In this document: one piece after another, positions 421-61,260 of the stretch | Position numbering within the stretch: position 1 is the stretch's first letter | Layout: each line of letters begins with the position of its first letter | Origin: Tomocerus qinae | Lineage: Eukaryota > Arthropoda > Collembola > Entomobryomorpha > Tomoceridae | Direction: 5' to 3' | Assembly: GCA_020055645.1 (NCBI GenBank) | Contig: CM034548.1 | Location: 1,364,001 to 1,428,000 of the forward strand | Length of the DNA stretch: 64,000 nt | Position numbers and translations under genes: made by a program | Notes under the pieces: generated by a model | Databases searched by the model: none | What the model was told of the DNA's origin: nothing | The model's input: the letters and a program-made list of their open reading frames with translations, nothing else

Positions 421-1440
421 ATGTAGGTAGAAGAGAGAAGGCAGTGAAAATAATGATTTGTGGAGAAAGAGTAGGGAAATGTAGACTTTTGACTTTGAGA
501 GTATTATTTTGAGTGGATAGAAAAGAAAGAATGGAGTACTTTAATAATAGATAATATTATGGCCTTGCATTATGTAGTGTCTAAGTCTGCATGATGGTGG
601 GTATATCAGAGATTGTATGCAAAGGCGGAATATGTGTCTCCCATTTGTTGTATGACATTGTAGTCAGTATATAAAATAGATTGTATACCAAATGGATAGA
701 ATAGAGTAGATAGGGTTTATAAAGCCAGGCAGGGAAGAGAGATGGGAACAGAGAGCATTCTCTAGTAGAGAGAATAGGAATGGGGAAAGTGAATAAATAG
801 AGCATTTCTCTTTGAAGTCGTGAAGAAGAGAGAGACAGAAGGAGTTTGCAGGTCGTTCCGAATAATTAGTGACTTTGAGTCTCCTCACTCACAATCAGTC
901 AATGTGTTTAGACAGAGCACAAACGAAACAGAATACATTTCTATTTGTTCTACTACGTGAAACATCAAAAATGTCCATTCCGTGCACATGTTTCATCTCA
1001 TTTTGTGTACTTTCGCCTATTGTTTGCCAACCTAATGCGAACAAACTAAACATTCACTATCTCTTTACCATTCAATCTAATATCCCAGCTCCATTATGCC
1101 TCTAACCTTATCTTTACATCTACTTACTTAGCTATTCTCTCTATTATATATATGATATGTTCAGACAGACAGAGATCAGACAGAGATACATTCACTCAGC
1201 AGAGGACCATAGAGTCGCAAGACGACAACTTCAAAATGTCTCTCCTTTCTCTTGGCCCACAACCACTACTATATACTGGCTACTATTATTCTACCTACAA
1301 CTGCTATGTCCTCAACTTGCTACATCCACTATAACATAATAATATTATTATTATCCTTCTTTCTCTCTCGATCCACCTATAATGTACCCTAAAGCCAGAT
1401 CAGATGGATGATACACCAACCACTACTTACTACCTCTAGT
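421..1440. other. GC-skew inversion module A (switch near 870)
   Basis: The + strand is C-poor to the left and G-poor to the right of about position 870. By count, 421-480 has 21 G and 1 C, while 1321-1380 has 1 G and 16 C. Short open frames run leftward on the minus strand (581-888) and rightward on the plus strand (869-1334). They are rich in S, T, L, Y, P and H, as expected where G is scarce, and I do not take them as genes. No repeat terminus is visible. The same polarity recurs in the other modules listed here. Confidence 0.7.
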
Positions 1441-2008
1441 AGGTAGTACGTAGGTTATGTACTACATTGGTACTTCCAGATATTATGTTTTAGTATCATG
1501 TACTATTATTGTAAGTAGCTTCTTGCTCTTTCTCTATCCGACATCCTTAATAGCTTTCTATCTAACTCACAAAAATCTCCAAAACCCTTTTGAAGAAAGA
1601 AGTATCGTTGGCTGTACATAAAGGAGTATAAAGAAAATTGAGATGTGTATAGGCACAGGGCACAGCAGAGTCCTGATAAGCTCCACGCATCCCGAAGAGA
1701 ATATTGATTAGCAAAACGCAGAGCTCATTTCAGTATTGTTGCCTACTTTTCATTATTTTTTCATTTTCAATGCTCTTAGCTGACAATTTATTCTGAATGG
1801 AATACAAGATGTAATTCTGGGTCGTCAAATCATCTGTTGCTTAAATACATCTTAGGTTCACAATAAAGCGAAAATGGTAATGATCTTTTAGAATAAATTA
1901 TTTTTTATTAATAATTTTTTTTATTTACTGTCTCAAATCCAGATTGCCTTTGGACACAACAAAATAATTTAATGCATATTGACAACAAAAATGTATAGTA
2001 AGGTATCA
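1441..2008. other. No gene recognised
   Basis: AT-rich sequence. It opens with a small palindrome around 1424-1450 (TACTACCT / AGGTAGTA). Nothing else is supported before the foldback element begins. Confidence 0.45.
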
Positions 2009-2764
2009 TTAGATCTCCTCCCCGTTGAGGTTTCCTCCAGCCTTAGATCTCCTCCCAGTTAGACTACCTCCCGTTAGATTTCTTCCCGGTTAGACTACCT
2101 CCCTAATAGACTACCTCCCTATTAGACAACATCCCGGTTAGACTACATCCCGGTTAGACTACCTCCCCCTTAGACTACCTCCCGGTACTCAAAGCATAAA
2201 GTAACGGCTGAATGAAAATCGAAACTCAAAATGTTAGTTAAGGAAAGAACTAGGATAAGGAAAAATGGTAAAAACGAGATCGGTCACTAATAATATGTAT
2301 CTGTAATTATTAATAATGTGCAGAGTGGCCAAGCTTCGTAAAGAAAAGTACAATATTTTATCTTCTTGTCCCTAACAGCAAAAAATTAAATAGATAAGGA
2401 AGCTTTTTTGAAAACAGTTGATGGACAAACTGTTTACTTCAAATATAGATATACAGAAGACAGAAGTTTTCCATTACATTATTAGAATCTCTTCATTCCC
2501 ATAGTTCTACCCATCATCCCATACACCCCGACCCCAATCTCAAGTTACTAAGTTTCGATTTTCATTTTGTGGTTGCCTTATACTTTGTGTATCGGGAGGT
2601 AGTCTAATAGGGAGGTAATCTAATAGGGAGGTAATCTAATAGGGAGGTAATCTAATGGGGAGGAGATCTCACGGGAGGTAGTCTAATAGGGAGGTAATCT
2701 AATAGGGAGGTAATCTAATGGGGAGGAGATCTCACGGGAGGTAGTCTAACGGGAGGAGATCTAA
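2009..2764. mobile_element. Foldback-like element FB1
   Basis: About 756 bp bounded by long inverted arms (about 2009-2230 and 2553-2764). Each arm is mostly a degenerate tandem array of a roughly 16-17 bp unit, read as GGGAGGTAGTCTAATA on the right arm and as its complement on the left. The inner ends of the arms share about 45 further inverted bases that include GAAAATCGAAACT. The outer tips are TTAGATCTCCTCCC and GGGAGGAGATCTAA. The centre has no useful open frame, so the copy is non-autonomous. Its core shares sequence with FB2 at 23.7-25.1 kb. Arms made of short tandem subrepeats are the hallmark of Foldback (FB/Galileo-like) transposons; membership of that superfamily is inference. I could not identify a target duplication. 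Confidence 0.75.
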
Positions 2765-3793
2765 AGTATTCCTTAGTGTATTTTATTATACACTTCGTAC
2801 CTGAAAGTTGCACACTTGTGTGAATGGGGTGGTTGAGTTTGTGAACAATAAGCGATTTAAGTGCAGAGAGCTATATGGAGCAGCAGTGGAGTAGTAGGTA
2901 CCTCAATATATGAATGTCTTAGCTCATACATATGCCTATGTACAAACATAATAAATAATAAGAGTCTTCGTAAGTCATCCGTAAATAGAGTCATCACCAA
3001 TGCAATTGGGGATGTGAAGGAACTTCCGCCGAGTCTAATTACGGTAAGTATGGAGAGTAAGTACATTAACTAACGAAGAGATGAAGTAAAGAGATTCTTT
3101 TGATGACTATCTAACTGATTAGCTCCTGTTTCAGCCCTGATTTTGAATGTCAAGGCAGCCGCCGTCAATGAGAGGAATCTAATCAGCACAACCAAAGCAG
3201 TCATCGACACAACAAAGCACAACCTATTCGCCCAATAACACAATTGCTGAATCAACAGCCAAAGGGACAGACCCATCACCCCGTCGAAAAATGTATCAAG
3301 CCTCTCTCCCTTGATTAAAGTAATTATACATAGAGCTACATAATATACACCAACTGCGAGCATCTCGTTACGCTAATAATAATTCAATAATATCACACTT
3401 GCAACTGTGTGCTTCATTTTTTGCTGCTTGATTGATTTAATCGTTTTTTAGCTTGATTAAGGTTCACAAAATCTCCGATTCGCGTCGTTAATTTTTTTGA
3501 AGGACATATCCTTCCAATTTGACTTATTTTGGAAATCTCTGGTTTGATTAAATTTTTTAACGACAATTGTTTGGTTCAGTAAAAGTTATTGACAGTCGCC
3601 TGGTTAGGTTGAAAGTCACATGTGTTTGGACCAAGTTTTAAGACAAGAAACATATGCATCGTTTTGGAAGTACTAAACTGCGACAAAATCTTTAACTTCC
3701 AGATGCATCATTTAATGATAATTTTTTAGCTTATTAAATAGAAATTGTTCACATTTTGATAAAGAAAAGCCAATATTCTCCAAACCCGTCTGC
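2765..3793. other. Unassigned sequence with a short hydrophobic open frame
   Basis: A 97-codon minus-strand frame at 3070-3363 is strongly hydrophobic in its first 70 residues (two or three possible membrane spans), but it has no recognised domain. On the plus strand a frame at 2861-3045 ends in ELPPSLIT immediately before a good donor-like GTAAGT at 3046. It could be an exon, but I see no convincing acceptor and no neighbouring exon. I leave both unassigned. Confidence 0.3.
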
Positions 3794-4332: not shown

Positions 4333-5608
4333 TATGAGCTATTATATTGATGGTATTATAGGGAAATACAGACGGACTTTACAGGAGACGGGAATCACCG
4401 GAGCTGTGCAACTACCGCCGCTTGCAGTGGTATAGTATTAAGCTTGTGTAGGCTAACTAATGCTGGAATCCAGCATCTAATACACTTATTATTTCAATGT
4501 ACTAAGTACAATATCAATTGTATTTTATTATTTATTAATTAAGTTAATATTTCTATATTTTAATCATAAACCCAAGTTTTAATTGCTTTAGACTTTAAAA
4601 ATTGATTGTTATAAACATATTATTTCAACATGTTATGTAAATCTAAAGTTAAATTACGTTAAACAACATTAAAATGTGTTAAGAATGCCAGTTATGGCTC
4701 TTAACTACACGTACAAGTTTACTTGCACGACTTTTGGAAGCGTCGGTAATTCCACTCGTCCGGTGATTCCCTGCTCCTGTAAAGTCCCACCGTCTGTGTT
4801 CCATGTAATCTCACAATCACTATGATTGTGAAGTGTTAGTGGGGCTTTAATTATCTGCTGTATTTATGAGATGATAAATAGTAATAGCGGGATGTGTAAA
4901 TATCAAATATTTATTTATGATTTGTAAATGTACGTGTTGGGATGACAGGTTGATCTAGAGACGTGACACAGGAAATGGACTCGTTCTTCAACAACAGACC
5001 GATCTCTAGAGCACATGTTTCCAATGATATGCTCTGGAGTTTTTTTAGTGTTATTATTACGGTGTTGCTGGGCGAGCCATGAATTAAAAATCATCCGGAG
5101 CGTTCACAGTTCATGCAAACAAATCTTTGTACATATTTATAGGAGAGGGAGATGGGATGGAAGCAAGAAGTGTCATGGCCCACTCCCCCACCCTCTGTCT
5201 CCGTGAAATATGTCAACGACTTTTCCTTATTTATTAATATGCAAAACTATTCTCTCTGCTCTAACCACACGCACTCGGAGGCCTCTTAATAATATGTCAG
5301 CACACACACCTCCATGCTCTATTATCATCTCTGCATTATGCATCTCTTCATCGTCTTCCGGCCATCACCACCACAAACAACTTCACTACTTCCCGAGTCT
5401 TTCAAATCTTGCACTCTCTCCACTCACTCGCCTGGCTCCACTCAATATTCATAAGTTACGACGTTCCAAACAATACACGTACATAGTAACTATACGCTAG
5501 AGCCACAGCTAATGACATTCTTTAAGTTACTTATACTATACTGCACTAACTGCACCACGTAGCTAAGTATATATTTATTATGACTGAATGTTCTCTCCCT
5601 CAGAGGGT
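4333..5608. other. No gene recognised
   Basis: AT-rich sequence with a C-rich, G-poor stretch from about 5200 to 5450 that carries a composition-driven plus-strand frame (5210-5500). A weaker G-rich zone precedes it, so this could be a further weak skew module. I see no repeat ends, RNA genes or domain-bearing frames. Confidence 0.4.
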
Positions 5609-7440: not shown

Positions 7441-7869
7441 ATAAGCCACGGCAACAGGTAAGGAACAACTTCTATATAGGATGGTCTACAGTCTACGTAT
7501 AGTCACATTATTCATACAAAATCATTTGTATTTACTACACTCATTCGTTGTTCAGGGAGCCCCTTACATTTAGTGGAGTACATAGTAGCTACTATAATAT
7601 ATACTATTTGCCTTGCACTACGCAACTAATGGTCCGAGTTTATAATGCAAGAACCTATGGTTATTATGATGCACAATATAATCTCGCTCAATGAGAAAGA
7701 TGTGCAATCTCGAATTTTAATGCAATGAAAGTAAAAGTGTCGGTCCAGTTTAAAAGTGTCGGCCAGATGTATTGAGTCAAGTCAGTGAATTGTTATGCGT
7801 GATGACCATTGGTCAATAATCCCCTCTACATGCATAACCCTCTGTTCAAGTAGTACTAACTTTGTTGCA

Positions 7870-8690
7870 TAAGTATTAGCTGGTACTTAGTTGCTTAGGG
7901 TGTAATGGGTTGTTGTTGTGGTGGAAGTGTTTGTTTTGGGAGGAAAGGAGCAGGGCGGGAGATGGGACAGGAAAATGTGGCGTGAATATTGTATGGCAGT
8001 TACTATGGGATGAGAAGTGATTGTGAGATAGATTGGAAACAGGCAGCAGTTGTCTCAATCCCAAGAATCTTTTCTTTACATCGCAGTTCCCCATAAAACT
8101 CTCTTCATTTCATTAGCGACTCACTCAATTTTGTTTCTAACGAGATCTGAATGTCACATTTATTTCTTGCAACGAACGTAGCCACGCCGAATCTCGCTCC
8201 AACAACTCCCCAATCTTTTAAACACACACAACTAGACTAATACAATAATAATGTGAAGGAAGGAGTTAGATTTGCAGCAGTGAGTCCAAGTCCCAATACC
8301 AACAAAAATAGGAATAGATAGAGGAAGTCTCTCCCATTCAACGGCAGTAAATGTCGCAAAGCCATTCATATTCATATGATTTTCTTGTCTCAGTGAATTC
8401 TGGTGACAATGACACACGGGCCACCAGCACTCGACAGCAACAGAGAGCACAATGTTTATTCATCCCACTCCAACTCGCATCAGCCACCTACGTCTTTTTA
8501 TTATTACCCGGTCTCTACTTCTCCTGCCACACAACTCTGTATATTCAGTATGTTAAAAAACGTTGTGCTTTTAAACGATCCCCTTCCTGTCTTCTCACTT
8601 CAATAGACATCTTCACTCACGTCCCTCAATCTCAAAATCGTCTGTACAGACAACCAAAACGTTCTCATGTGGTACATACACAATGTTGAA
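7870..8690. other. GC-skew inversion module C (switch near 8050)
   Basis: One of the sharpest modules. Positions 7921-7980 have 29 G and 3 C on the + strand, whereas 8461-8520 have 5 G and 23 C. A minus-strand frame (7876-8094) and plus-strand frames (8351-8689) point away from the switch and look compositional. There is no sign of a transposon terminus. Confidence 0.7.
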
Positions 8691-8989: not shown

Positions 8990-9625
8990 ATGGAGCAGTC
9001 TGGCTGACAAATCGGAAAGAGGACATTGTGTCGTTGGGTTTGTTAGATTATGAGGCAGATATGGAATGAGTGAGTTGAAAGGGATTCTTTGGGTCTGTAT
9101 ATTATTGGCATTTTCCAAGAAAAGTGAATATGTAGTAGTGAAGAAGAGATTTATGTTACGGCTGGTGCAATGAGCACGAGTTGGTGGCCATATTAATATT
9201 TATGTTCGTTAGCACGGATAGAGATGTGGAAGTTGCATCTCTGTGCATTATTGGGAGCAGAAGAAGGAGTGGAGTGTGTATAGATAGATGTACACATGGA
9301 GTATGCATGATGTATAATGTCTCTGGCTGAAGAATGGCTCAACCCTTTTGTGGATTGAAAGGGAACAAAGTGATATTTTGAGATTTGCGGGAATCTCGTG
9401 TGTCTGTGTGTTTTTGTGGTGAGGTAGTCGAGACTCCTCATAATATCATCTCCAGTTCACTTCAACTCAAACACTCATAAAACTACATTGTAGACACACA
9501 TTTGTATTATTCCCTTCTCTGTGTAAATATTAAGGTGGATTACCCGTACTTTACATATCCATCAGACTCCTCTTTCTACGTTAGTGCCCATTCACCCTGC
9601 CTGTCCCACGGATAGTATACTTATA
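8990..9625. other. GC-skew inversion module D (switch near 9440)
   Basis: The + strand is G-rich and C-poor from about 8990 to 9430, then C-rich and G-poor from 9440 to 9620 (for example 9541-9600). Minus-strand frames at 8924-9118 and 9193-9441 are compositional. Confidence 0.65.
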
Positions 9626-9653
9626 TATATCATCTCTAGTTAGCAATGTATAA

Positions 9654-9821
9654 CACACTTCCAGGGTTGCGGTGTCCGGATGGGAAGGTGTGAACAAAAA
9701 TGGACCAAACTAATTTCTTCCTGGACAAAATTAGTTTCGTCCTGGAGAAAAGGTGAACAAAACTTATTTTGTCCTAGACAGTAATAGTTTCGTCCGGACA
9801 AAATACAACCCTGCACACTTC
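9654..9821. mobile_element. hAT-like MITE with intact 8-bp target duplication (GTCCGGA family)
   Basis: The element spans 9662-9813 (152 bp) between exact copies of CACACTTC (9654-9661 and 9814-9821). The ends are CAGGGTTGCGGTGTCCGGA and TCCGGAC...ACAACCCTG, a typical CAGGG/CCCTG hAT terminus. The interior repeats a TAGTTTCGTCC-like motif. It is non-coding. Confidence 0.88.
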
Positions 9822-9849
9822 ACATATGTCTATATGCAATGTATAATAT

Positions 9850-10435
9850 AATGCACAAGTGTATACTAAGACAGTATATAAGATAGTAGTAGGTGAGTGT
9901 ATCTGGAGTACCAAGTAGAGAGATAGAGAGTTGGGTGAGAGGAGAGAAGAGAGTGTCAGATGAGAGTTGTAAAGATGTAATGTAACTGTAGATGTTGATA
10001 TTGATGAGGGGGAACGTGACATGATATGATATGCGTAGCGTGTGAAGACTGCATTCAAAACACACATGTACACGCGAGATGCACTCTCAATCTCATCTAT
10101 AGGTCTATTATACACTTACCTATAGCGATTCCCAATGACATCGTCTCTCCTTCCAGCTAGCTTATGTCATACAATACGTAACACTCGCTACTACTACACG
10201 TCCCATAAAAACATACTCTCGCCCGCATGCAATAAGGACCTAGGTACTCATAAACTAATACTACTGACTGACTTACTAGCATCTGTACTGCAGCGTATCT
10301 TCAAAAACTCTATTTGCACAATAAGATTATTATTCGCCTTTATTTATGCATGGGTGAGTGGAGTCCTTCCACTCCTTCCACACGACACGAGTACTACTCA
10401 GCACAGCGACAGTGACAACAACACAAAATGAGATG
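9850..10435. other. GC-skew inversion module E (switch near 10085)
   Basis: G-rich and C-poor from 9850 to 10070, C-rich and G-poor from 10090 to 10430. The two longest frames (9774-10115 minus, 10135-10431 plus) diverge from the switch. Their S/T/L/Y/H-rich low-complexity translations do not resemble a protein family. Confidence 0.68.
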
Positions 10436-12309: not shown

Positions 12310-12660
12310 GTAGATTATATTTTGTGGTTAAGGTTTGAAGTCGTATTCCAAACAGATTTAAATGTATTCAGATAAACACAAGCGTAGGTAAAGTAGTTTG
12401 TTGGGAACGGAGAGACGTCGGATGGATTGAGAGATTTGGAAAATTGGTTTCGACTATGATCTATTGTGAACAGTTAAGTAGCGATACAGTAGTTCCCTTT
12501 GACAGATAATTGACTACAAGGGAACGGATGAGAGAGTCATCTAGCTAACTAACAACCGCCCTAATTTATTTTATGCACTACTATTTCAATCTAAAACTGT
12601 CGCTATCATTCCATGTCCTGCCCGTCCATACATATTCCTAACTAACCTAAATAAATAAAG
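12310..12660. other. GC-skew inversion module F (switch near 12540)
   Basis: G-rich and C-poor from 12310 to 12480, C-rich and G-poor from 12541 to 12650. It is followed by a short TATC/TGTA microsatellite at about 12680-12705. Confidence 0.6.
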
Positions 12661-14879: not shown

Positions 14880-16480
14880 ATTGTCTAATAAATATCTAGT
14901 GTGTGGTTGGGGAGAGATGAGTTGAGACAGATTATACATAGTTGACGAGGAAAGGAATATGGAGTGAATATTATTATTTCTGGCTAGAGGAGAATGTAGT
15001 AGGTAAGTAGATCATCAATCAGTGCCATGGAGAGGAACTGCTACAATCGATTGCATAGATGAGTAAGTTAAATAATAATGTACAGTTGTTGTGACTATTT
15101 ATACAGCGAATGTTTTATGGAGATGAGTATGAGATGTAAATGTAGTGTGGCTGTTGAAGATCTGTTGGGAGTGTGTGGAGTGGAGTGCAGATTGGTAAAG
15201 GCAGATAGAGTATTGGGTGTGTTTTGTTCTTCTGAGGATTCGGTCTGTGGGTGGATTGGATACATTTACAGTTACTCTTCCGTAGTTACTTATATTATGT
15301 TACCTAGTTTAGAAGCCATGCAATCCGAGAATTCCTCCAAAATGCTGAAGCAGAGAAAAAGAAACGAAATGAAAGTAACTAAAAATAAGTTTTCCGATTT
15401 CCTCTCCAATGCCCTTTCCTCATCCTCACACATCACAAAATATTCTATTTTCATAACTTGAATTTTCATAACTTGAAAACAAGGGCATACCTACGCGCTC
15501 CGTAAAGAGCACAGACAGAGGAGTAGCGAAACAAACAACCGAGCCAAACCACACACACAACTCACTCAACTACCAACGAATCTAATCTGCAGCACCATCC
15601 CGCCGCATCTTCTACCTCTACACACAATATCTACGACTCAATCTCATCATATCCCACATTATTATGGACCTACACATGTAATAACCAATGTACTACATTC
15701 ACTTTTACCTACTTACATATACCATACTTACACAACCGTATATTAAATACATGCACATCAAATGTACTAGCTACTTGAGTGTGCTTTCATATACTAACTA
15801 CATACATACATCCAATCCATGTATATAGTAATTTGTTACTGCAGTTTCTTGTATTCATTATGTATGTACATATTTATATGAAATATTATAGACATGCAGA
15901 CATAATATAATAAATACAATGCATAAGTGTTACTGAAGATTGTGTATTGTGAATATCATCTATATAAATGTTGCTTCCAAAGAAACCTCCATCCACTATA
16001 GATGATGTAGCAGTCTCAACCGACACTCTCACTCGCTCGACTGGTCTATATTTACATTACATGCAGTAGTTGTAGCTAGGTCTCCAAAGATACTGATAAT
16101 AGTAGCAGTAGGCACAGATGACATAGAATCTGTCGGACTATCTGTCACTTATCCGACAACTATCGCATGCACTTAAAGAATACTCTCCATAATATCCCTT
16201 CTTCTCTATTTACGTCTCTCCTCTGTCTCTGTTCATTTCTGCTAAGCCATCCACTCCTCCTCCGTACTACTATAACGCTCTACATTCTTATTCTTACCCA
16301 TAAAAATATCTTTCTACGACGACCATAGTGTACCTAACCCTTACGTCTCTAAGACAAAAACACCAATTCTATCCAAATATCCGTCTCTCTTGTAAAATAC
16401 ATTTCCTCTTCCTTTTCGTGCTCGCTAATAAATAATGCTTCCAGGCCTACCCATACCCAGTAAATACTTTTCGACACCGC
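14880..16480. other. GC-skew inversion module G (switch near 15280)
   Basis: The longest module. The + strand is C-poor from 14880 to 15270 and G-poor through most of 15290-16480, with 15541-15800 and 16200-16480 especially C-rich. The plus-strand frame 15078-15461 crosses the switch and has no recognisable domain. Confidence 0.65.
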
Positions 16481-17339
16481 TTCCTTATAGTTACTATTAT
16501 ACAACAGACATAGAATGGATAGTATTATTACTGCGTTTAGTAGTGGCTATGAAGTTGTGTCACATTAGTATACACGATTATTGTGTCGTGCATCTTCAAT
16601 AAATATTCTGTATTCTGGAGTAGCCGGTATGGATCCAATGGAAACTGCCTCACAACTCAAAGAACAAACTGGAAAACTATCCGATCAATTCTGCTATTTC
16701 TACTTGATATGCATTCATGGTTGGCATCACATTATTATTATTATGGCTAGGCATTCGATTCGTATTACTAACGATCATCTCTCCAACCGGATCCACGCAG
16801 CCAGTCAATGTATCATAGTCACATTTTCAATTCATCGAATGTTGCACATTCCCCCGTCTCCCCTTTCGTCCTCAGTCGCGTATAATGTTTTTATTTCCCG
16901 TTCCTGTTTTGAACATGCCCTCACATGACAGTATTATCAGTGGTTGTGTTCGCTTGATGCTTCCTCGATTACATCTCTTGTTTCTTATTGCCTACCACTG
17001 CCACGAAAATGTCACAAGACACCTTACCTCTATGTATAATTTGATTTATTTGCAAAATAACAGTTTCACAGAAAGTTATCTTCTTATCATTGTAAGGAGT
17101 ATCTAGTGCTGGGCGTACGGCATTAGCCGTCACGCATCATGCCCATAGGATAATCTTAAAGTGGAGTTGCGCAATGAAAAATTTCCGTGATTTAATGTAT
17201 AAATGTAAAAGATGAACTTCGTGTAATTACGCAGGCGCAAGAATAATTACAATATTTCGAAATTAAACTAAATGCTGCGCGGGTGATAAAAGGACTTGGA
17301 AATGAAATGATTGGATAGGGTGTTATTATGAGTGGGTAG
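16481..17339. other. No gene recognised
   Basis: Mixed AT-rich sequence that continues the mild C bias of the preceding module. Short plus-strand frames (16581-16928, 16885-17106) show no domain. Confidence 0.4.
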
Positions 17340-17384: not shown

Positions 17385-17391
17385 AAATATA

Positions 17392-19395
17392 TCTATACAC
17401 ACACTTATACTGCGCACACAGTCATTAGTCGAAAGAGAATAAGTAACTCGATTGACCATTTTGGTACAAAGATATTACCAAAATTTGGTAATTTTTATTG
17501 TGTTCACAATGCAATAAGATGCCGAAATACTAAATTTCATTTATACAAGTGAAATGAGAAGTAACCTTATTTCATTTAATCTTGGTACCAAGGAAGATAG
17601 ATATATAGGGTAAGCTGGAAGAATTATTGTGTGGATGGGACGAGGATAGTAGCGGAGCTGTCAAAGACACCAGCGACTCTGTCACTTGAGAGGTCTACTA
17701 CTTGAAGCACACCGATTGTAACAGGGCACCTTTAGATGCTATATCCATTTTGCTTGCATTACTAACAGGCTTTAGTTTCTGTCAGCATTCACAAGCATGT
17801 GTTATTATGCTGTGACTACCAATGCGCCAACTTTTAACTGTTAGTAGCTATTAGTTGGACCAAAAATGTTACGGTTTTGGCTCTCCTACTATAACCCTAG
17901 TTTTTAGATGGCTTAGCCATGGGTTACTTGGTAACAAAATAGTATCATCAAAATAATTAATATATTTTTTGTGTTTACAATGACAAAAATAATAAATAAG
18001 TTTTGCCACGTGTTACCAATCATTCTGTATATGAGGATAAACATGCTGCAATAACATTGGGTTAGCCCCATTGTGTAAGAAAACATCTGAAGCTCATTAG
18101 GCTCGATTAGTTTTCGAGATTGTTCAATAAGAGCTCGGTTCTTTAAGGGCTCAGTTCAATAAGGCTCGAGAGTAAGTTCGTTAGCCAGCTTTAGTAAGGG
18201 TCAGACAGGTGTTCAGAGTTGTACTTGACCGTAATGTACTCCACTCCCTAGTAACTCAACTCCTTTATTCCCCATTCTGTCATCACAACGAAAAAAGCAC
18301 AAAAGACATTCAGTTGGGCAGGAGGGAATTTTGTGGAACCAGAATTGTGACAGAAAGATTGAGAGGAGAGTCGTATTTTATACGCCTAAACTCTTTTGCT
18401 TGCTAATTCAGAGCCGTTTAATAAAGTGGAGTGTACCAATTGCTGTCAGATAATATTGACTGAAGATGGGGTTTTTATGTCAAATTGTTTTTTTTGTCTG
18501 CACGTACTCTGTAAAATGCAATGTGTCAGCTATGTTCATAAGATTCAAAACCTAAACCCTATTTTAAAAATTTTCAGCACTAGATGCTTTATTTTTCAGA
18601 ACACATTGAATGGTGTGAGTTTGGGTACAATCATAAATCTGCTATGCAATAAATATTCTGTAACAATTTCGCCAATCACGGCAGACAATAATTCGTACTG
18701 ACTCTGTTATTGTGCATAATTAACTGAGTTCATCTCGGTCGTCGGCTACACTTCGGATGTTAATTTAAGAATGTATTAGGAAGTGTAACCTGTGACCCAT
18801 GAATAAGATGCGGAAATGATGGATGGTTTGTCAACCGGGTGAAAAGGTAATACTTTACCCAGGGCTGTGCACAATAATGGAATTTGGAAGTTTCGAACCG
18901 AGTCACTCTGGGCTGCAGAGTGCCTGAACAATTGATGCAGTTGAGTTCAACGAGTAGGAATGCAATGAATGGAGGCCTCTCCATTCCAGACAAATGACCC
19001 AACTTCCCACCCATTGCATTCACTCTCATTCAACTCACGCCACCAGCTAAGTGAGACAACATTTGAGCATTCAGCCACGCGAAACCAAAACGAACAATAC
19101 AAGAAATGAATTTCTTCTTACTGATTTGTACTTACTTTGCTCTAGGTATAATTACATGAAGATGTGTCTATAATATGTGAAATACTTCATTCAGTTAGTG
19201 TGGGGTTTGTTGCATAATAAGTTTTTTTTATTTTGCTGCCGTCTTCTACATTTCCACGAGGAAAGAAAGGGGCGTCAAAAAATCTTTGAGTTCTTCAATG
19301 TTCTTAAATGTCTGATTGATCGAAAATTAGAATTTTGTGCTGCAATTCTTGCTATAGCAAAGCAGTAAGGTGAAGTAGATTTAATAATAATAAGA
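17392..19395. other. No gene recognised
   Basis: AT-rich sequence containing GGTACC-type inverted motifs at 17455-17590 and short unassigned frames (18209-18406, 18396-18701, minus 18760-19029). I cannot support a gene, RNA or delimited element here. Confidence 0.35.
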
Positions 19396-19600: not shown

Positions 19601-20859
19601 CTGCTTTATAGAAATGACCGATATATCTGTCTGTCTGTTTTTGGCACGATAACTAAAGAACTGTTTGAGATAATCAATTAAACTTTCTGTACGTGATCTA
19701 GGGATAAAAACTGACGTCGAGTACGAAAGTGGACAAAATCAGTCACCCCCTCCCCCTCTGCCCATTCTTCACTAAATTCAATTCTAAATATTTCGGAATT
19801 TTATGTTTAAAAGGCTTCCAAACAGCCAAGTTATATATTCAATTCGGAATATTTTGCCAACCCCTAAAATTTGCCACCCAGTGCGGATGCACGGGTTTCA
19901 CGGTCCTCGGGACGGGCCTGCTCCGGATGAATCGCATTTTTGAAAACGTCTAAATATTTCTGAGGACGAACTTAACTTTTTATCGTTACTGTTTACGTTA
20001 ATTAAAAATATATTAATGTATAATGTTTCTAAACAACCAAATATTAATCAAATATTAGTCTTAATTTATCAAATATTAATGTAGTTATTAAATAAATTAA
20101 TTCACCCATAATTAATGTTATGTGAACGTGAACTGATCAGTATTTTGTGTGGCATTTTGTATGTGTAGTGTTTTTTTTTGATTTTCGGAGTCTCATAAAT
20201 AACTTGCCTCCGGCGTCTTTCCACGCAACTCGTGCCTCTTTTTCCTAGTATTCTATCCTAATCCGATCTTTCTGTACATGTAAAAAGATTTTAATGTTGA
20301 AGTCCAACTGATATCTTCAAATCTAGATGAGACCTGTCCTCCTCAATTTGCAATGACAAATTATGCAAATTGATCTTGTATGACTAGAAGACACTCTGTA
20401 AAGTGACGTGTATTTAGATCATCACTAGTTCCATGTCTCAGTAATTAATGAGCAAGATGGGGAATTCTCGACCATGACAATGAGCAATCAGTATATCGGG
20501 AAGAAAATAGTCGAACTTTATGTACTTCATGCAATTTGTTACTCGAAATGGTGAAATGGTCAACTCGAAGCAGACAGAATCTCCAACTAATCCGATTTAC
20601 CAAGGAAAGAGCGAGTGAGGGATGTCCAGTAGTCTTTTTACATTTTGTGACTAGTGACAAGACCATCGCCAACCTTCTCCAATCAAATGCTATTTACGCA
20701 TATAGATATTCACAGGGACACGACACACAAAATATAGTGTATTCTGCTGAAGGTACATATCCAAAGGCGAATCTTAAATTCGCATTTCATTATAGTGCAA
20801 TATATCTGTATATAGGACTTTGTTTGAAATTCAAACTTGTGTTTAGTTGTACCTTTGGG
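19601..20859. other. No gene recognised
   Basis: 19616-19700 has a (CTGT)n-like tract followed by a motif of the type seen in many dispersed repeats, but I cannot delimit an element. The frame at 20536-20865 (109 codons, plus) is less biased than most in the window and contains a short charged segment, yet matches no family I know. Confidence 0.35.
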
Positions 20860-21380
20860 GTTTAGGGAGATGAAAGAAGATAGATACAGTGTTTTGGGAT
20901 GCGGAAGAGTCGAATGAAATAATGCTCAATATAAATGTAGAGTGGAGTAATGTCTATTTGTGAGAGAGGGGCGAGTAGTGCGGAAACAATAAATAAATGG
21001 TCCGGGTACCCATGTACTTACTAATATTGTATATGATGGAGTGAAGAAGGAGCAGCAGTAAATAGAAGGAGAGTGGAAATGGATTTGGCCAGGCTAAGGA
21101 GGAGCTGGATGAGGACGAAGAATTGCTAAATTGAGAGATGCAATATTCAATCATTCAATAAGAATAATTCAATATGCTTCTAACTAGATTTCTGTGCAAC
21201 TGAAGTGACTGATTTCCAATGTTATTGTTCTCGAGTTTCAGTAACTCCGCTTCCGCCTCTCCAGCACTCTCTCACTCACTCTGTCTCTGAATATCCTCCA
21301 TATGCGTCATACTCCACTCCTCATCTGACTCTTCTTACAGTCTAACACATCTTATAACTCTATGACTCTTTGTCCCACAA
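20860..21380. other. GC-skew inversion module H (switch near 21200)
   Basis: G-rich and C-poor from 20860 to 21160 and C-rich and G-poor from 21231 to 21380. The minus-strand frame 20954-21154 is a serine- and leucine-rich product of the bias. Confidence 0.62.
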
Positions 21381-21827
21381 AAAGGTTCCAATAACCCTGG
21401 GAGAGAGGTAGTTGACTTTCCCGGGTAATTAGCTGCCTTTTTCCAAATAATTCTTTTATTCCATTAAATCTAAGGGGTACTTGACTTTAGCTATACCAAT
21501 AGTGCAGCACAATAATAGATGAAATAATGCCCATCTAGCTCCTCCAACGCATTCGTTGGTTATTTTATTGCGCAAACTATATTCGCAAACAAAGTATAAA
21601 TAATTCTAATTATTCGGTACCGTGAAAATTGTGGAATCGAATAAGTGTAAATAAGCACGCAATCAAATTTGCTTGGAGATTTCTATAAGGAATATGTGCA
21701 AAAATAAATACAGATGTGCCCATCTGAAATATAAAAGAGAATTTCCCCACATCATGGAAGTGTCAATAATTGGCAATTCTATGTAGGCAAATACTTTATA
21801 ATATAAGTACCGTATTTAATATTCGCT

Positions 21828-26331: not shown

Positions 26332-26399
26332 GTAATCGTTTTTAATTAATTTCAATTTTTTGATCCTTAACCTGAAAGCCTAGCTTCATCTCCATAGAT

Positions 26400-37925: not shown

Positions 37926-37989
37926 TCTAAAGGTTTCAGTAGTCATAAAATTTGGTCCTGTTTTCGTGCTTAGTATTTATAATCAGAAG

Positions 37990-38949: not shown

Positions 38950-39650
38950 TAATTAATAATAAAGGTAATTGATGGGAGGATGTGCATTGCAGGGCAGGTT
39001 GGTTTATTTATAATGTGGTATATAGGTAGGAGTGTGGGAGTATAAGCTGAAAAGTGTGTAGAGGAGAGGTAGAGGTGAGATGGGCGGAGAGTCTGTGGGT
39101 GGGGTGGCAGAGGGGCCACTGGGCTGAGGAGGAGGTTCAATGCACAATGCATTGGAATTAGACAACAATAGGTCTCTGATTTCTGGCAACCTCATTACTC
39201 GCTCTTTTGTTCCAGTTTTATCCCCATTTTGTTCTAGAACGTTTCTTTGTTCCAGAGACTGAAAGCGAGGCAAGAAAGGAGACTGACAATGAACAGAGAA
39301 AGCGAGACAATTCGACTTTCTTTCTTCTTTTTCCTCCGTCTTCTTCCTTAGTTATACTTAGTTAGTCACTCTCCATTCAATCTCCACTCAATCTCCATCT
39401 CGCACTCCCGACCGACCTTATTGTATCGGAGATTGCTATGGCACAGACCGAGATACGGCACACATACACACACTCGTCATTCTTCGTCTCATCGCCATCA
39501 ACTCACTGCTGCATTTCTCCGCACTGCATGAACTGATTGCATAATATTATGTCTTTGTCCTAAATCCATCTCTCCATTCACTCGACAACAAAAATGGAGA
39601 GTCGCTCAAGTCACTCGTCATTAGACGTAGACATATAAAATTCTATTCAT
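38950..39650. other. GC-skew inversion module N (switch near 39290)
   Basis: G-rich and C-poor between 38960 and 39150, C-rich and G-poor from 39300 to 39620. Minus-strand frames (38928-39273) again point left. Confidence 0.62.
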
Positions 39651-45775: not shown

Positions 45776-47141
45776 TCCAAAAACCAGGGGATGCGTCGAA
45801 ATTGACTTCTAGCGAAAATAACTGGTTGCTCCGTAATTTATATGCTACTGCATTGAAAAAACAGTTTTGAAATAAGTTATGCCACTGCAAAGAGATACTT
45901 CATTCTACCAATAGTGGACGATCAGACGATCGGCGGAGAGATTCCGACAAATTTTACGTAAACTTGGATCCTAATAAGTACTCATGTTGGCTGACTCTGG
46001 CCCATGCCCCCATATTGGCATAACTGTGTTACAAGTGAGTGTACCACCGGGCGTCTACCACCCTGACTTTCGTAGTTAGCTTTCCCACCCGGAGCCTACA
46101 TCGGAAACAATGTCTGCAAAGTATAAGCCATTTGTTTGGCACTTTGGTTGCCTCAATTTAATTCTTGTGGATTTACATAGTAGAGAGAGAGTGATGTTGA
46201 GTTTAGTTGGTGTGAGCGAAGGAGATGAAAGGAGAAAGCCACAAGAATCCATTATAATTCTGTATGCAAGAGTCATAATATTTATTGGCAAGAAGGAAGT
46301 CTTTTCTTTGCTAAATAACTTTCCTTATTTCCCAGTAAATATTGAAAAAGTTTATGAGATGGAAAAGTGTGCGGAAGAAATGAGTTGTTAGCACATTAAG
46401 TTTCTGTTGCTCACGATGATGAAAGAGTCACAATGCAGCCAACTCAGGATCAGGCAGACACACAATTTGGTTGAGATGCCGCCCGCCCGCAGGTTAGTCA
46501 ACTACCAGTTAGCAAGACCAGCATAAGCCACAAGTCAACAAATCCCTTCACCTTTTCTTCCTACACTTTCACAACTCTCAGACCCAATTGTTCCCACACA
46601 ACATCAGCTACTTTAGTACACATAGGATTTTTGTAATCCCATCACAATCACATATGCAGAAATCTTATGTGTAAATCAAATAGGTATTCAAATTACCATT
46701 ACTTGTTTCAGTTTTATATGCTTTATAAAGTCAGGTTCTTTTCTATGTGAATGAAGATTGGTTATAATTACTGCTTATTTTATTTTAATGAATGATTTTG
46801 GTAAATTGAGATAATGAGGAGATTTGCATTTCCAACTAAAAAAGTTTGGATTTAAATGATTTTACACATAAGGTCTCCATGCCCTCTACTAAAGTAGCAC
46901 AAGGAATCATAATAACCTATAAGAAGTACTTAATTAATTTACAACGGGAATTAATTAAAATTCCTGTAAGAAGTTTATACTTAATTAATTAACAACGGGA
47001 ATTAATTAATTTATATAGATTCATTTATTCTGCTCACAGTTTAATTTTATTGTTAAAAATAAAAATTACAATAGACAAATTTCACACAATCAAATCCTAT
47101 TTTAGGGTATCTTACAAAATGTCACCTAAAATATATTAACA
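45776..47141. other. No gene recognised; ~50-bp local duplication
   Basis: A segment around ACTTAATTAATT-ACAACGGGAATTAATTAA is present twice in tandem (46925-46955 and 46978-47005). The 93-codon plus-strand frame 46110-46391 is charged at its end but matches no known family. Confidence 0.4.
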
Positions 47142-50560: not shown

Positions 50561-51339
50561 GGCAATATCTAAACACAGATCTAATTCTGTTGCCACAATC
50601 TCAATGTGTTGCTAAACTGAAACTGTTGTCGTGCGTGGCTCTTTTATTGAATTTAAGTCGTATTTCGTTATTTAATCATTTCTTTCCTTAAGGCATCACA
50701 ATTTTAGATGGACGACAAAAATACACGCACTCGGTCCTATGGATGAGTTTCGGACGCTACAAGTTTTACTTTCTGCCTTTTCGTATCCGTCTCAAATGTA
50801 TCAACTGCACACCTGAACATTTGACGGTTTCACAAGAGTCATCATCGATCTCCGCACTGACATTATTATCATCTAAGGAGCATGGCTAATTTTTGCAGAC
50901 CCGCAAGCTTTTCAAACTCCTATATGTATTAAGACACTAATGGATTTGCTGACACACAAGCACAATGACATTAGGTATAAATTTAATCTGCCATAAATAA
51001 GTGTGAAAGCTAGAAACCAACGCTTGGGTGTAAAGTTAATGGCAAAAATGCAGTAGCTATAATAGTAACCATGCAGAGAGAGAAATGTTTCAATGATAAA
51101 TGCTAGTACAAATAAAATTATTATCTGAAGTGGTAATCTATCAAATGAACAAAGCAGTGTAAAATAGAAACGTATATCTTTTTTATGGAATACAATATTC
51201 AGGACATCAGGGATTAGTGCTAATAACTTGTTTAGGTGTTGCCTGAATGGAAAACACGGGGCGGAATAGTTTAATAAGTAATTTCAAGATTTGGGGTGCC
51301 CCTCAAAAATATAAGTTTAATAATGGTACTGGGTGTGAG
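50561..51339. other. No gene recognised
   Basis: AT-rich sequence without repeats, RNA genes or domain-bearing frames that I can support. Confidence 0.45.
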
Positions 51340-52170
51340 AGAATGTAGAATAAGGAATTAATAAAAAGATGAGTGGAGAATGAGGGCGGGGAGCAGTTGT
51401 GGAGAAGAAAGCGGATGTGTGCGGAGTAGGAAGACATTAGGGTATTTTGGGATGTGCGGTGAGAGTGTGGTAGAACAACTTCTCAGACGAACGATGACGA
51501 CGTTGATGAAGATGATGACAAGATTGATGTTTTCGACAGCCAGGAAGCCAATTTCGTGTATATGCGGGAGAGCGGGAGCGAGCGAGAGGTGACGATTAGT
51601 TGGCTAATGTGTTTTCCAGGAGTAGATTTCCATGCAAGGAACAACAGGAGCCAAGTGTGAGCCATTCCCACCCAAATACTCACTCTCATCGCCAATCGCT
51701 CCCGAGAAGTACTCTTCTGGTACTCAGTCTGGAGTTGATGGCCATAGGGCCGACTGCCACCAGACCTGGAGATATTCTCCTCCTAATTGGGCAGAGAGAG
51801 ACGGGTCCGTGCGGGACAGGAAAACTTTTCAGTGTGCACTTTCCCTTCTCCTGCCAGGCTCATCCTAAATCTGCCACTAAATCTCCTCTGCCTGGGATGA
51901 ACACTTTGTCATCCTCTCCAACTAATGCACACAGCAATTACCAGAAAATCGACGGATGGGACAGGACTCCTAAGTAGTCGTCTACTTCGTTGTAACCAAA
52001 CCCCTGCATGTCTAGTATGCAATTCTCACTCATTGTCACCACAATATAACTAATGGCACATAAAGCCTACTAAACTGCCTCCTTCCACTTCAATAAATCC
52101 ACCATACAGTTTCTATTTTTATTCAATTCCAAATCCGTTTAATTACAGACATTGCTATAGTTTGCAAACA
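51340..52170. other. GC-skew inversion module P (switch near 51620)
   Basis: Strongly G-rich and C-poor from 51340 to 51600, C-rich from 51620 onward. The plus-strand frame 51600-51977 (125 codons) is S/T/P-rich and has no domain. Confidence 0.65.
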
Positions 52171-52789
52171 TCCTATCAGAGAAAATCTTCTTCACACACT
52201 GATGACATGGAAGTGTATTGATAAATATATTTTCACCCATTTTAGCAGTCATACCGTATTAGAAATTGTATTTAATAGTGTTTAAGGTTGTACTTGTAAT
52301 TAATAGAGGGGAAAGTAGAGAAAATCTCATGAGACTCCTTCAGTTTAAGCGTGAAGCACTTCCTGACCTAATAATTGGCGACAGCAAATTCAATTTCACC
52401 ATTGGAATGACAATAGAAAGTTGTTATCTCATTTGTCGGCTGTGCCTTTCCATTTCCTGCACTTCCATTCCTCCCTCCTTCCTAGGTATGCTTCTATAAT
52501 AATTTTCCCATCTTCCGCCTAAACAGTATTTTATATTCATAAATCATTTGTTAGTAGTCCACAACTGTTTCATTTGCTTAGGGAAGACGAGCAACGGCAA
52601 GAGCCTTGCTCTTCGAATGCCCCCACCGAATCCAATTCACTGACACTGCTAATCAAATTCCCTCTTGCCCTCCCTCGTTCTGCCCGTCCCCCTTGACCCA
52701 CATTCACACAATCCTCAAAATTACCTCTCGTGTCCTCTGGGGTACTTCACCCCTTCCATTTACCGACTTGCTCTCCAAACTGTTTTGTG
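52171..52789. other. No gene recognised; weak extra skew flip
   Basis: A brief G-rich stretch (52285-52330) is followed by a C-rich one (52440-52780), so this may be a minor module. The 102-codon frame 52606-52914 is unassigned. Confidence 0.4.
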
Positions 52790-53420
52790 CATTGCAGTTT
52801 TTATGGAGTTGTTGTCGGCATGGTTGTGAGGGAGAGGCCTTTTTGAGTGTAGCTGGACATCGATTATGTTGGTTGGCAAAGTTTGTGTCAGTTATGACTA
52901 CTTATTTATATTGAGAGTCGTAAAATCGTAGCAAGTGTTAAGAAGAGTGCGTTATCTGCTGCAGTTGTTTGTGTCTGTTGCGGTGGAGTTGCTCAGGAAT
53001 TCAGGGGAATGAGGTTTCTCGTCCCCAGACATAGTACAATGCAGAGAGAAGAAGAGACATGTCCACGTGTCCATGAATTTTGCATGGGCGGCTGGCTATT
53101 ATTTGTCTACATTTGATTTAACTGGAAGTGGAGGAGGACGGGTTGGGAGTCATTCGGGAGTGGTCCAACTCCTCCGCCCGTTTCATTAAGTCCAGTCAGG
53201 CAGACAAATCCATATTGTTATGTCCATCCACATACTCGTCTCGATTTCATGCATAAACAATAGAATGGCCAAATTGTGGAAACGAACAACTGATCGGCCC
53301 AATATTGTTTTTTGTAAATATTTCTCCACTCCAGACAGACATTACTCAAGATTATCACTTTGACATTGGTCCGACCTTTCCATGTTTTGCTCACGGTTTT
53401 GGCATCGAAACTTAAAAAAC
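52790..53420. other. GC-skew inversion module Q (switch near 53170)
   Basis: G-rich from 52800 to 53160 and C-biased from 53165 to 53400. The right side is shallower than the left. Confidence 0.45.
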
Positions 53421-54599: not shown

Positions 54600-55620
54600 C
54601 CCATTGATGATGACCTGCGTCCGTCGGAAGTGGAGATTAAGGTTTGCACATTGTAGGTAGGCTAGATGTGTACTGTACTAAATGGTGTAGTTAGTTATGT
54701 AGTAGAAGAAGTAAATGATTTGGTCGTTGGAGGAGTAAGAATATTTGTGGCAAGGAGATGCGGTAAGTAGTAGTTAGTGGTTGGTTGGGTTAGAAGGACA
54801 GCTTTGGGAGAGAGCAGAAGAGATAATAGAGATGAGTGCAGTTTGAATGGGATCGGAGAAAGTGGGATTGGAGGAGAGACGGGAAGAACGAGTGTCGTCC
54901 ATTTGCGGATGATTGGGAAGAAAAAGTTTTTGGAAGAGTGTGAAAAACACACGGGAATAATTCCGGGACTCACACGGGAGACATCGGAGTTCTGGAACCT
55001 CCGCTTATTTATTGCAGCTCCTTCTGTCTGTCTGTTGTGAGTTGGTGCTCCGGTCCGGGCCGTAAGTGGTGGAATGCTTCATAAAAAATGTTCTGGAATG
55101 GACTACTTGGTAGTGGTAGTTGAGGAGCGAGTCGTAGATGTGGCTTGGAAGAGCGAGTGGACGAACGGAAGGGATAAGTGCGGAAGCTGCTGCAGATCAA
55201 TTCCGTTTGGCTCTCTCCGACTTCGGATCAGTTCGGTTCAACTCCACCATCCATTTACGTGGTCAATGGGGTCATGTTTAATGCACGAGATTACCCTTTT
55301 CTACCTTTTCTTACAAATTCCCTTCGGCCCATCCTTCCCCATTTTTGTCTTCCAACTCACTCACATTAGCTGGATGACTAACGAATCCGCCTCTCTCGCG
55401 CGTCCCGTATCTCCAACAAACACCATCATCATCACACACAACAACAAACAACTCACCTCTACTGCTCCTCCATCCCAATCCATTATGGATTTATCGTTTC
55501 TCTTCATAACCATCGCCCGGAGAATTACCAGACCGACCTAACCCTTTCCTCTACATTGTGTCCCGATTAGCGTAGTCATTCTCCACACACACATGTCATC
55601 GTCCCTCTTTAAAGACTTTT
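54600..55620. other. GC-skew inversion module R (switch near 55190)
   Basis: G-rich and C-poor from 54600 to about 55180, C-rich and G-poor from 55200 to 55610. It holds the longest frame in the window (55074-55541, plus, 155 codons). That frame crosses the switch, changes amino-acid composition sharply there and has no recognisable domain. Minus-strand frames (54695-54973, 55009-55200) point left. Confidence 0.68.
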
Positions 55621-57600: not shown

Positions 57601-58480
57601 ATAAGAAATGTCCAACGTGGAATTTGAAGGTGGATGTAGCAATTGTCATGCAGTTGGTCGGCGGATGAATTACAGAGAAGAAAAATGCTGCAGTGTGGAT
57701 TGAGTGAGAGTGAGGAAGTAGTTTGCGTGAAATAAGATTCTTTTTGAGGTTGAGGGGCGGGGAGCCCTAGGCAGTGGGGGAGGCCGGGAAATAATGCTCA
57801 GTGCGTCCATAAATAAAAAGCCCGGTTCTCCAACTTAACAAAACGATGTAAAAGTAGCCGCAAAAGAGTTCCTGTGGGACTCGTTCAGTGCCTCCTCGCA
57901 CAGACAGACACTCTCTGTTCCTTCCAAAGCCCCGCCCCTCCCAGCATCCCCCCTTCCACCACAACAAACTACCCAACAAAATAAATCCATCCATCTGCCC
58001 TTCGATTCCTCTGTATTTATTTCACTAAAACTGAAGTTGCTTCCTTTCCGAGAAGAAAGTACAATATTTCCCATCCTCCTCCATCCACCTCCATGCATCC
58101 TCCGCTCTCGTCTTCCACTCTTCACAAATAAACAGAGTCACTCTCTGTATAATATATTCTATCTGTCTCTACCTCTCGTGGGCTCTCGACTCGACTTGCT
58201 GCATGGCTTGGCTACTTGTACTCAATTGACTCTTTGACTCTCTAAACTCAAACTCCAAAATAATTCGGTGCACTTGTTTCCTTTCTTCTCTCCCTCCCAT
58301 TCCCGAACTCCGCTTTCTCTTGTAATTTCCACTCTCATTCACACTGTCCGATCTTATTCATTCTTCATGCACACACACGTCAGACCTATCCACTTCCCTA
58401 TACACACAGATATACATTCTCAAACTTGCTATTATTATGCATTGAAAGACTTTTCATTTCTTACATGCTCTTGTAATTCT
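57600..58480. other. GC-skew inversion module S (switch near 57840)
   Basis: G-rich from 57620 to 57800 and strongly C-rich with very little G from about 57870 to 58430. Frames 57767-58125 (minus) and 58037-58507 (plus) are low-complexity. Confidence 0.66.
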
Positions 58481-59694: not shown

Positions 59695-59802
59695 TTTACC
59701 ACTTACCACTACTTTTTAGTTAGTGGTATTGGTATTTAACGTTAAATACCATTGAAAACCACTTACCACTGGTAAGTGGTAAATGGTATTTTGTACACTG
59801 GC
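59695..59802. mobile_element. hAT-like MITE fragment (TACCACTTA family) with palindromes
   Basis: Ends in GTAAATGGTATTTTGTACACTG, matching the 5617-6127 family terminus (quoted part: TTTTGTACACTG). It contains the perfect 20-bp palindrome GGTATTTAACGTTAAATACC and the hairpin CCACTTACC-ACT-GGTAAGTGG. The left end is truncated. Confidence 0.65.
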
Positions 59803-60110
59803 AATGAGTGTAGTTGTGAAGGAAGTGTTGCTTGGGTGAATAGTGGGCCGGGGTACGTAGTACAAATCGGATTCATACTTGGCTCGTCGCGTGTCATTCC
59901 CTCTCACAAAAAGGAGAAGGACACGACAGAGCAGATGAGTGTAGATTCAGCTTTCCTTGTCTCGTCATTGCTGACAAGACTGATGGCAAACAAATGTTCA
60001 ACTCACCTAATACCTACATGTTGTACGCTCCTTAAATCCCTTACCTACCTGTCTTACGTTATCATCTAGGCTCATCTCTTTGCGCTTCTCACCTTTCCCA
60101 ATGCCGTCAG
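59803..60110. other. GC-skew inversion module T (switch near 59900)
   Basis: G-rich to about 59870 and C-biased from 59940 to 60110. A short, weaker example. Confidence 0.45.
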
Positions 60111-60215
60111 TCAGCATTGGCAAATATTATACATATTTATGTGATGATAAGGTAATAATAATATCCGCTACCCTAATAATAAATCACCAATTGCCAAGTC
60201 AACATGCAAAAGTAT

Positions 60216-60459
60216 CATCAAGGCAATCACGTATACAGAACTAAGGATCGGAGGGCTAAGACTTCCGACAGATATTTTCCATTTTTTTCCATTTTTTAAC
60301 GAAAATGGGTAAAAAATAGCCTAATTTCATATTCTCAAAATCGCGCCGAGCCCCAAATTTTTTGCTATTCTGAAATATTCCCTTTTACCTGAATTTCGGG
60401 GGGGGGGGGCTTCAGCCCGTAAAGCCAAGCCCACCCCTCTATACGTCCTTGCATCAAGG
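60216..60459. mobile_element. hAT-like MITE with intact 8-bp target duplication (reference for its family)
   Basis: The element spans 60224-60451 (228 bp) with exact CATCAAGG at 60216-60223 and 60452-60459. The ends CAATCACGTATACAGA and TCTATACGTCCTTG are imperfect inverted repeats. A G-run followed by CTTCAGCCCGTAAAGCC lies near the right end. Related fragments are at 30365-30540 and 37760-37925. Confidence 0.85.
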
Positions 60460-60769
60460 TAACTATAGGTGATATTCAAGACTTTATTCCTATTGGCACT
60501 GCAAGATTGCAAACAAATACAATTTTTTTAAGAAATTATATTCGGCAAGCGAGTAATAGTGAAGTAAACTGCATCTATATGATTTTATTTAAAGATAGTG
60601 ATGATACGTGAGATACAGTCAAATGCAGTCGAAAAATTAAATACTCTCATATTCCCCCGCCAAGATGTGGAAAAGTAAATGCTTTTTATGCAAATGTCAA
60701 TACAGGGAGTTAGTATTGTTAGAACAACACAGTACTCAAACTTTTGTGTCAGCTCATATGAATTTTAGT

Positions 60770-61260
60770 AAGAAGTATTTTTGGTGTGGTGTGAGTATGA
60801 GGTAGGGAATGGTTGAGATGAAGTGTCGGATGATGACAGCAAGGAAGAGGACACGGGTGTGCGTGTGTGTTGCGGTGAAGTGAGCGAGAGGAGCGTGGAA
60901 ATCGTGAGAGAACGTCAGTGGATGCAATTATGGGAGATTCGGAGACAGATAATATTAGACCCTAAATGTATCAGGAGCGTTTGGGATGCGATTACCCAAG
61001 AGTTGCCCGAGGACAGCGCGCGGCTCTTTTGGTGGGGACGTCGGGACAGGATGAGCGAGAGGAATCATAAATATAGAAATGTGGAATGTCGTAAAGCAAA
61101 TGCGAATGAATCACACGAGGAATTGCATTGACGTCAAAGGATTTCTGACTTTCTTACATTCTGTGTCTTCTGAGCTCCAATCCACAACAACGGAACCCAA
61201 CAGACAAGACAACAGCCGAGTTTCCACTCGCCAGAGGTGGGCTCATACACTGCACATTTT
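60770..61260. other. GC-skew inversion module U (switch near 61140)
   Basis: G-rich and C-poor from 60770 to 61130, then C-biased from 61140 to 61250. It contains the plus-strand frame 60823-61131 (102 codons). That frame is charged and better balanced than most and includes a WDAITQELPEDSARLFW stretch, but I recognise no family. Confidence 0.5.

Follow-up and report, generated by a model that had tools for sequence, protein, structure and literature searches.

Mirrored GC-skew modules clustered in a stretch of the Tomocerus qinae genome may mark outward, bidirectional RNA starts

We analysed 64,000 nucleotides of the genome of Tomocerus qinae (assembly GCA_020055645.1, contig CM034548.1, here C3), namely C3:1364001-1428000 on the + strand. 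This stretch is called the window, and positions within it are counted from its first base. The + strand of the window switches repeatedly from G-rich to C-rich sequence, and we confirm that this same-direction switching is real. Seventeen modules were delimited, each with a G-rich arm on the left and a C-rich arm on the right. We suggest, with about even confidence, that they are a local cluster of noncoding cis-regulatory elements, enhancers and/or bidirectional promoters, with divergent transcription initiation; judged by their base composition, these islands may mark outward bidirectional RNA starts. The window had been chosen for its skew pattern by the reader who wrote an earlier note on it, and the polarity outside the window rests on small samples.

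The score of a switch was the lower of the net G-C sums of its two flanking arms, which were 60, 100, or 200 base pairs (bp) long. For 200-bp arms, a threshold of 20 net bases per arm gives 21 G-to-C and 9 C-to-G switches, compared with means of 2.15 and 2.2 in 20 Markov-3 sequences. At a threshold of 26 the counts are 13 and 2 (Markov-3 means 0 and 0.1), and at 32 they are 8 and 1 (both means 0). With 60-bp arms there is no such polarity (32 G-to-C vs 36 C-to-G at a threshold of 9; 7 vs 11 at 12). With 100-bp arms it is slight at a threshold of 13 (27 vs 19), yet at 10 the counts are 44 and 46. Thus, the polarity is a property of arms of a few hundred bases.

The modules were delimited by their maximal-scoring arms, either G-rich or C-rich, after tandem arrays in the window had been masked. 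The main setting, an arm score of 17, yields 31 G and 25 C arms. Neighbouring arms no more than 300 bp apart form 17 G-then-C pairs, 4 C-then-G pairs, and 6 pairs of the same kind. None of 5000 label permutations gave a difference between the two orders as extreme as this, and the largest permutation p was 0.0042 over arm scores of 14, 17, and 20 combined with gaps of 150, 300, and 600. In each of 12 Markov-3 simulations the number of arms was between 1 and 8, and no arms were paired. The skew is paired and inverted about a core, with 17 G-then-C vs 4 C-then-G pairs and a sign opposite to that of the mammalian case discussed below. The 17 modules, to which no strand is assigned, are as follows.

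Module 1, 315-1436: G arm 315-852, C arm 1027-1436
Module 2, 4824-5558: G arm 4824-4978, C arm 5179-5558
Module 3, 7864-8666: G arm 7864-8043, C arms 8054-8232 and 8461-8666; found only once in the genome search
Module 4, 9014-9609: G arm 9014-9432, C arm 9434-9609
Module 5, 9874-10224: G arm 9874-10047, C arm 10082-10224
Module 6, 12384-12647: G arm 12384-12447, C arm 12538-12647
Module 7, 14899-16505: G arm 14899-15259, C arm 15394-16505
Module 8, 20839-21397: G arm 20839-21140, C arm 21245-21397
Module 9, 26417-26820: G arm 26417-26633, C arm 26639-26820
Module 10, 33646-33904: G arm 33646-33728, C arm 33813-33904; close to the score threshold
Module 11, 37986-38712: G arm 37986-38193, C arm 38441-38712
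Module 12, 38862-39589: G arm 38862-39135, C arm 39308-39589
Module 13, 46167-46651: G arm 46167-46238, C arm 46528-46651
Module 14, 51210-52199: G arm 51210-51625, C arm 51837-52199
Module 15, 54626-55607: G arm 54626-55186, C arm 55294-55607; found only once in the genome search
Module 16, 57617-58425: G arm 57617-57796, C arm 57891-58425; found only once in the genome search
Module 17, 59771-60105: G arm 59771-59860, C arm 59999-60105; the only module with some repeat cover (0.1)

The earlier note had described one prevailing polarity, which the arm pairs and the 200-bp switches bear out, and had proposed a Markov control, over which both switches and arm pairs stand in large excess. It had named equal numbers of C-to-G crossings as evidence against the pattern; such equality is seen with 60-bp arms and is not seen at the scale of 200 bp or of the arms. 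Its four base counts are exact (421-480, G21/C1; 1321-1380, G1/C16; 7921-7980, G29/C3; 8461-8520, G5/C23). At the 11 further switches that it listed, the left 200 bp hold more G than C in every case, and the right side has a clear C excess in 10. The exception is 51620, where the right 200 bp are weak (G52/C56) and the C arm begins only at 51837. The change had been placed within a few tens of bases, which is true of 4 of the 17 modules; the gap between arms ranges from 2 to 290 bp, with a median of 108.

Strong C-to-G switches at 2548, 24916, and 61888 are located within or next to arrays of tandem or inverted repeats. Two of the four C-then-G pairs are the spacers separating adjacent modules (9609-9874 and 38712-38862), and one (2541-2818) flanks an array. 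The fourth, a sharp C-to-G switch in 52445-53163 (at 52780/52782), is the sole strong switch of reverse polarity between unique arms and is unexplained.

On the outward strand, the composition of the arms is A 0.280, C 0.319, G 0.097, and T 0.304, compared with A 0.323, C 0.178, G 0.180, and T 0.319 in the rest of the window. There is no large CpG excess, the observed/expected ratio being 0.79 in the arms and 0.78 elsewhere, and little A/T skew, the T-over-A skew staying within 0.11. The C-over-G skew decays symmetrically on the two sides in successive 100-bp steps, from 0.59/0.59, which owes partly to the way the arms were chosen, through 0.35/0.33, 0.13/0.22, and 0.28/0.14 to 0.02/0.02 at 400 bp, beyond which it wanders within about 0.18. 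In 400-bp arms pooled over 24 switch points (21 in the window and 3 in its right flank), self-match is raised at lags 2, 4, and 6 (0.294, 0.307, and 0.296) relative to 0.282 at lag 3. The words in excess in the arms, for which no formal threshold was set, are mostly simple sequence, such as TACCTAC and CAGACAGA.

Two specific sources of the asymmetry were considered and rejected. The splice-donor pattern GT[AG]AG occurs 52 times inward and 3 times outward, which by our own arithmetic is roughly what base composition gives. For context-specific deamination, no single enzyme-like context was recognised in the trinucleotide ratios of the arms. The outward-strand ratios of G words to their C partners are similar for TGA, AGT, AGA, and TGT (0.21-0.35) and lower where GG is adjacent (0.08-0.14 for GGG, GGA, GGT, AGG, and TGG).

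The modules sit outside repeats, as the earlier note had claimed. With a repeat library made from the fetched loci and the window itself, repeats cover 0.3% of the modules and 24.0% of the rest of the window (circular shift, p 0.001); the cover is 0.0 in 16 of the 17 modules and 0.1 in the other. All 17 are less than 11% covered, compared with a mean of 9.4 of 17 length-matched random stretches (maximum 16, 5000 sets). This poverty is partly selection by detection because an inserted repeat would break an arm, and unpaired skewed arms are likewise repeat-poor (129 of 3518 bases covered). The genome searched comprises 334.4 Mb in 115 contigs. No second copy was found in it for the three modules searched (3, 15, and 16), each matching only itself in a search that skips simple repeats. 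No relation between modules was detected, in agreement with the earlier note, and neither this repeat library nor the three genome searches support the idea that they are copies of one repeat family.

Inverted repeats were also rejected as the source of the mirrored composition. Although several cores looked palindromic by eye, the two arms of one switch align no better than random positions do: for 400-bp arms at the 24 switch points, own pairs score 48.3, cross pairs 44.6, and random positions 48.5. The difference between own and cross pairs is marginal at 100, 150, and 200 bp (p 0.052, 0.028, and 0.020), with own pairs close to random positions in a test that includes the switch at 18975, and there is no effect at 60 or 300 bp (p 0.23 and 0.19). 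Only the switch at 18975 reached the alignment display score of 24, and an imperfect inverted repeat of ~27 bp surrounds it (18939-19036). Elsewhere in the window, two foldback-like elements (1999-2775 and 23743-25063) have arms consisting of facing 16-bp CTCCC-type arrays; they are partly alike and partly similar to the array at 26255-26340. A tandem array at 31087-31742 has a 19-bp unit in about 33 copies with 96% matches.

The window had been called gene-free. This stands for the sample examined, which is not a full gene search: none of the 20 open reading frames (ORFs) searched, 18 in the window and 2 in its right flank, reached the cut-off of a Pfam family (the best match, with E 0.015, fell far short of its own), and Rfam at gathering scores found nothing in the window. 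The longest ORF per 400-bp arm averages 70.2 codons, compared with 69.1 in a composition null (24 switch points), and the pooled lag-3 match shows no codon periodicity. Thus, neither Pfam nor ORF lengths nor the lag-3 match supports the modules being coding exons.

Is the pattern general in this genome? The masked window has 8.75 arms per 10 kb. In samples with arrays left unmasked, 140 kb of contig C1 below 89 Mb have 1.5 arms per 10 kb, with no G-then-C and one C-then-G pair, and 60 kb of C1 above 103 Mb have 3.83 with no pair of either kind. Twelve of twenty actin loci (40.5 kb with overlaps) have 2.47 arms per 10 kb with one G-then-C and no C-then-G pair, and a mid-C3 locus of 5 kb (L043) has 2.0 with no pairs. 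Samples of C3 at 1.20, 1.43, 1.60, and 2.31 Mb (20 kb) have 9.0 arms per 10 kb and 5 G-then-C vs 2 C-then-G pairs; of these, 3 and 2, respectively, come from the locus adjoining the window (L042) alone. Relative to the loci sampled, paired skew is clustered regionally in this part of C3. C1 below 88 Mb seems to be a compartment of its own and thus serves poorly as a control; the 60 kb from above 103 Mb are a fairer sample but a small one.

The genome searches gave some further observations. Roughly the first 88 Mb of C1 look like a separate compartment, with 1 of 94 homeodomain, 4 of 53 HLH, and many kinase matches among the matches listed, the kinase matches often in one open frame. Ten homeodomain matches lie within 1.1 Mb at C1:115557047-116673063, beginning with four on the minus strand that are followed by six on the plus strand, and this group (C1:115.56-116.67 Mb) looks like a Hox cluster. 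At C2:23033001-23037353, three homeodomain matches share one open frame of 1945 codons, and a fourth lies about 2 kb away on the same strand. Actin-family exons occur at many places in the genome; together with the homeodomain matches they mark it as an animal's, and an 18S gene likewise looks metazoan. A 66-base 18S query has at least 26 full-length matches (7 on C1, 12 on C2, 1 on C3, 4 on C4, and 2 on C5) and one partial match; sequence was inspected at one of these places (L044). The ribosomal RNA genes look dispersed rather than arranged in one tandem array because the closest pair of matches is about 33 kb apart.

What could produce such mirrored arms? We suggest that transcription would start at the module cores and run outward in both directions, and that the sense strand of each divergent initiation region would show an excess of C and a shortage of G over a distance of up to ~400 bp. 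Since the C excess would lie on both outward sense strands, the + strand would pass from G-rich sequence on the left, through a roughly balanced core of ~100 bp, to C-rich sequence on the right. Mutation or selection linked to initiation would have produced the skew. The mirrored pairs of one polarity, the symmetric decay, the repeat-poor islands, and the noncoding composition are consistent with divergent initiation. From the literature, the opposite-sign skew peaks at mammalian head-to-head promoters (PMC3882496) and the stated C bias of invertebrate starts (PMC3315797) also speak for it, and divergent initiation is reported at active enhancers in three animals (PMC6203779). More tentatively, and at rather less than an even chance, the window could be a regulatory landscape of tens of divergent elements without recognised genes, written as mirrored GC skew with a sign opposite to that of mammals.

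Several observations weigh against divergent initiation. At four actin loci, the 100 bp upstream of the start codon give a mixed sense C-skew (0.49, 0.06, -0.11, and 0.07), two of the four starts being only approximate. No core-promoter motif is significant in the cores after multiple testing; TCAGT occurs there 12 times, compared with 4.7 expected, but ranks sixth among all 5-mers, and its excess is weaker when the cores are padded. In the arms TCAGT is not enriched outward (3 outward, 9 inward, and 11.5 expected). Arms are just as numerous at one locus, L036 (C1:103.1 Mb; 8 per 10 kb), yet none of them form pairs, and switches in the 200 kb of C1 lean the other way at a threshold of 20 (6 G-to-C and 12 C-to-G; 1 of each at 26). 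A general start-site or origin signature would not be expected to be confined to one region, as the pattern is in these samples. No actin, homeodomain, histone, kinase, or HLH family match lies in C3:0.18-2.77 Mb among the matches listed, an absence that is weak because it rests on the best candidates only. Finally, Fujimori and colleagues report no significant C excess in any of 10 animal species (PMC555766). The earlier note had argued by analogy with the C excess at plant and fungal starts, and this analogy is weaker than it supposed because the present genome is that of an animal; in PMC3315797, however, invertebrate start sites are stated to be C-biased.

Might the skew be functionless? 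Slippage-prone, strand-asymmetric low-complexity DNA of a di- or tetranucleotide-like kind could drift neutrally in the unique spacer between transposons, as the raised self-match at lags 2, 4, and 6, the simple words in excess, the repeat-poor unpaired arms, and the short-scale skew without polarity would suggest. Such drift predicts equal polarities at every scale, which the 17 vs 4 arm-scale pairs contradict, and we consider it rather unlikely. A replication initiation (or termination) zone with strand-biased mutation would also give paired, symmetric skew about a point and needs no genes. However, the modules are only a few kb apart and their arms fade by about 400 bp, which is very short for fork bias, and origins are expected along C1, yet the 200 kb sampled there gave no G-then-C pair. 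Furthermore, the module polarity is opposite to that of a G-rich leading strand, a point that the earlier note had also made. We regard replication as the least probable of the explanations considered here.

Skew by itself cannot separate C-rich transcripts running outward from G-rich transcripts running inward. The latter would end at the cores, and the 3' ends of fungal genes are indeed G-biased (PMC3315797). Convergent transcription should show an asymmetry of poly(A) signals, which is not seen (AATAAA, 14 inward and 9 outward, with 16.1 expected), and it would be strange for as many as 17 convergent ends to lack a recognised gene; this explanation seems very improbable. Undetected protein-coding exons, or the first exons of a lineage-specific gene family, are improbable as well. 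The gene search is incomplete, some arms contain long ORFs (for example 55041-55541 on the + strand), and a right-flank ORF (L042:2266-2655 on the - strand) is signal-peptide-like as judged from its translation. Against such exons stand arm ORFs as short as those of the null, a lag-3 match that is not raised, the 20 ORFs without a Pfam match at cut-off, and the three modules for which no second copy was found.

Should the cores prove to be start sites, functional data would not be needed to map the regulatory elements of an animal that has been little studied. Divergent initiation would make regulatory archipelagos readable from bare sequence, the skew being a long-term germ-line record of bidirectional initiation. 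Mutational and adaptive explanations of start-site skew are both left open by McLean and Tirosh (PMC3315797), and a sign opposite to that in mammals, together with the regional confinement, would help to separate them. Open-access titles and abstract openings revealed no report of mirror-skew modules that are clustered and have this sign in an animal. Divergent promoters with paired inverted skew and starts with a C excess are both known already, and a functional link is only proposed here.

Among known systems, genomic regulatory blocks, which are clusters of conserved noncoding elements at developmental genes (PMC5585340), resemble the window in having many noncoding islands poor in repeat insertions. 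The modules differ in having no known target gene, and the term GC skew is absent from the text of that paper. Fungal genes, C-biased at their 5' ends and G-biased at their 3' ends (PMC3315797), share with the modules the sign of the 5' bias and its reach beyond coding sequence; there, however, the bias runs along genes, whereas the modules have no recognised gene. The C excess at plant and fungal start sites (PMC555766) is similar in that C exceeds G on the presumed sense strand, most strongly near the presumed start. The modules, unlike those sites, are paired and occur in an animal, and that paper reports no significant C excess in its 10 animals. Mammalian head-to-head or divergent promoters, with two sharp inverted skew peaks (PMC3882496), are G-poor upstream and G-rich downstream, whereas the modules are G-rich on the left and C-rich on the right; the modules are, moreover, known from sequence alone and lack a large CpG excess. 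In both, skew peaks of opposite sign flank a shared core over a few hundred bases.

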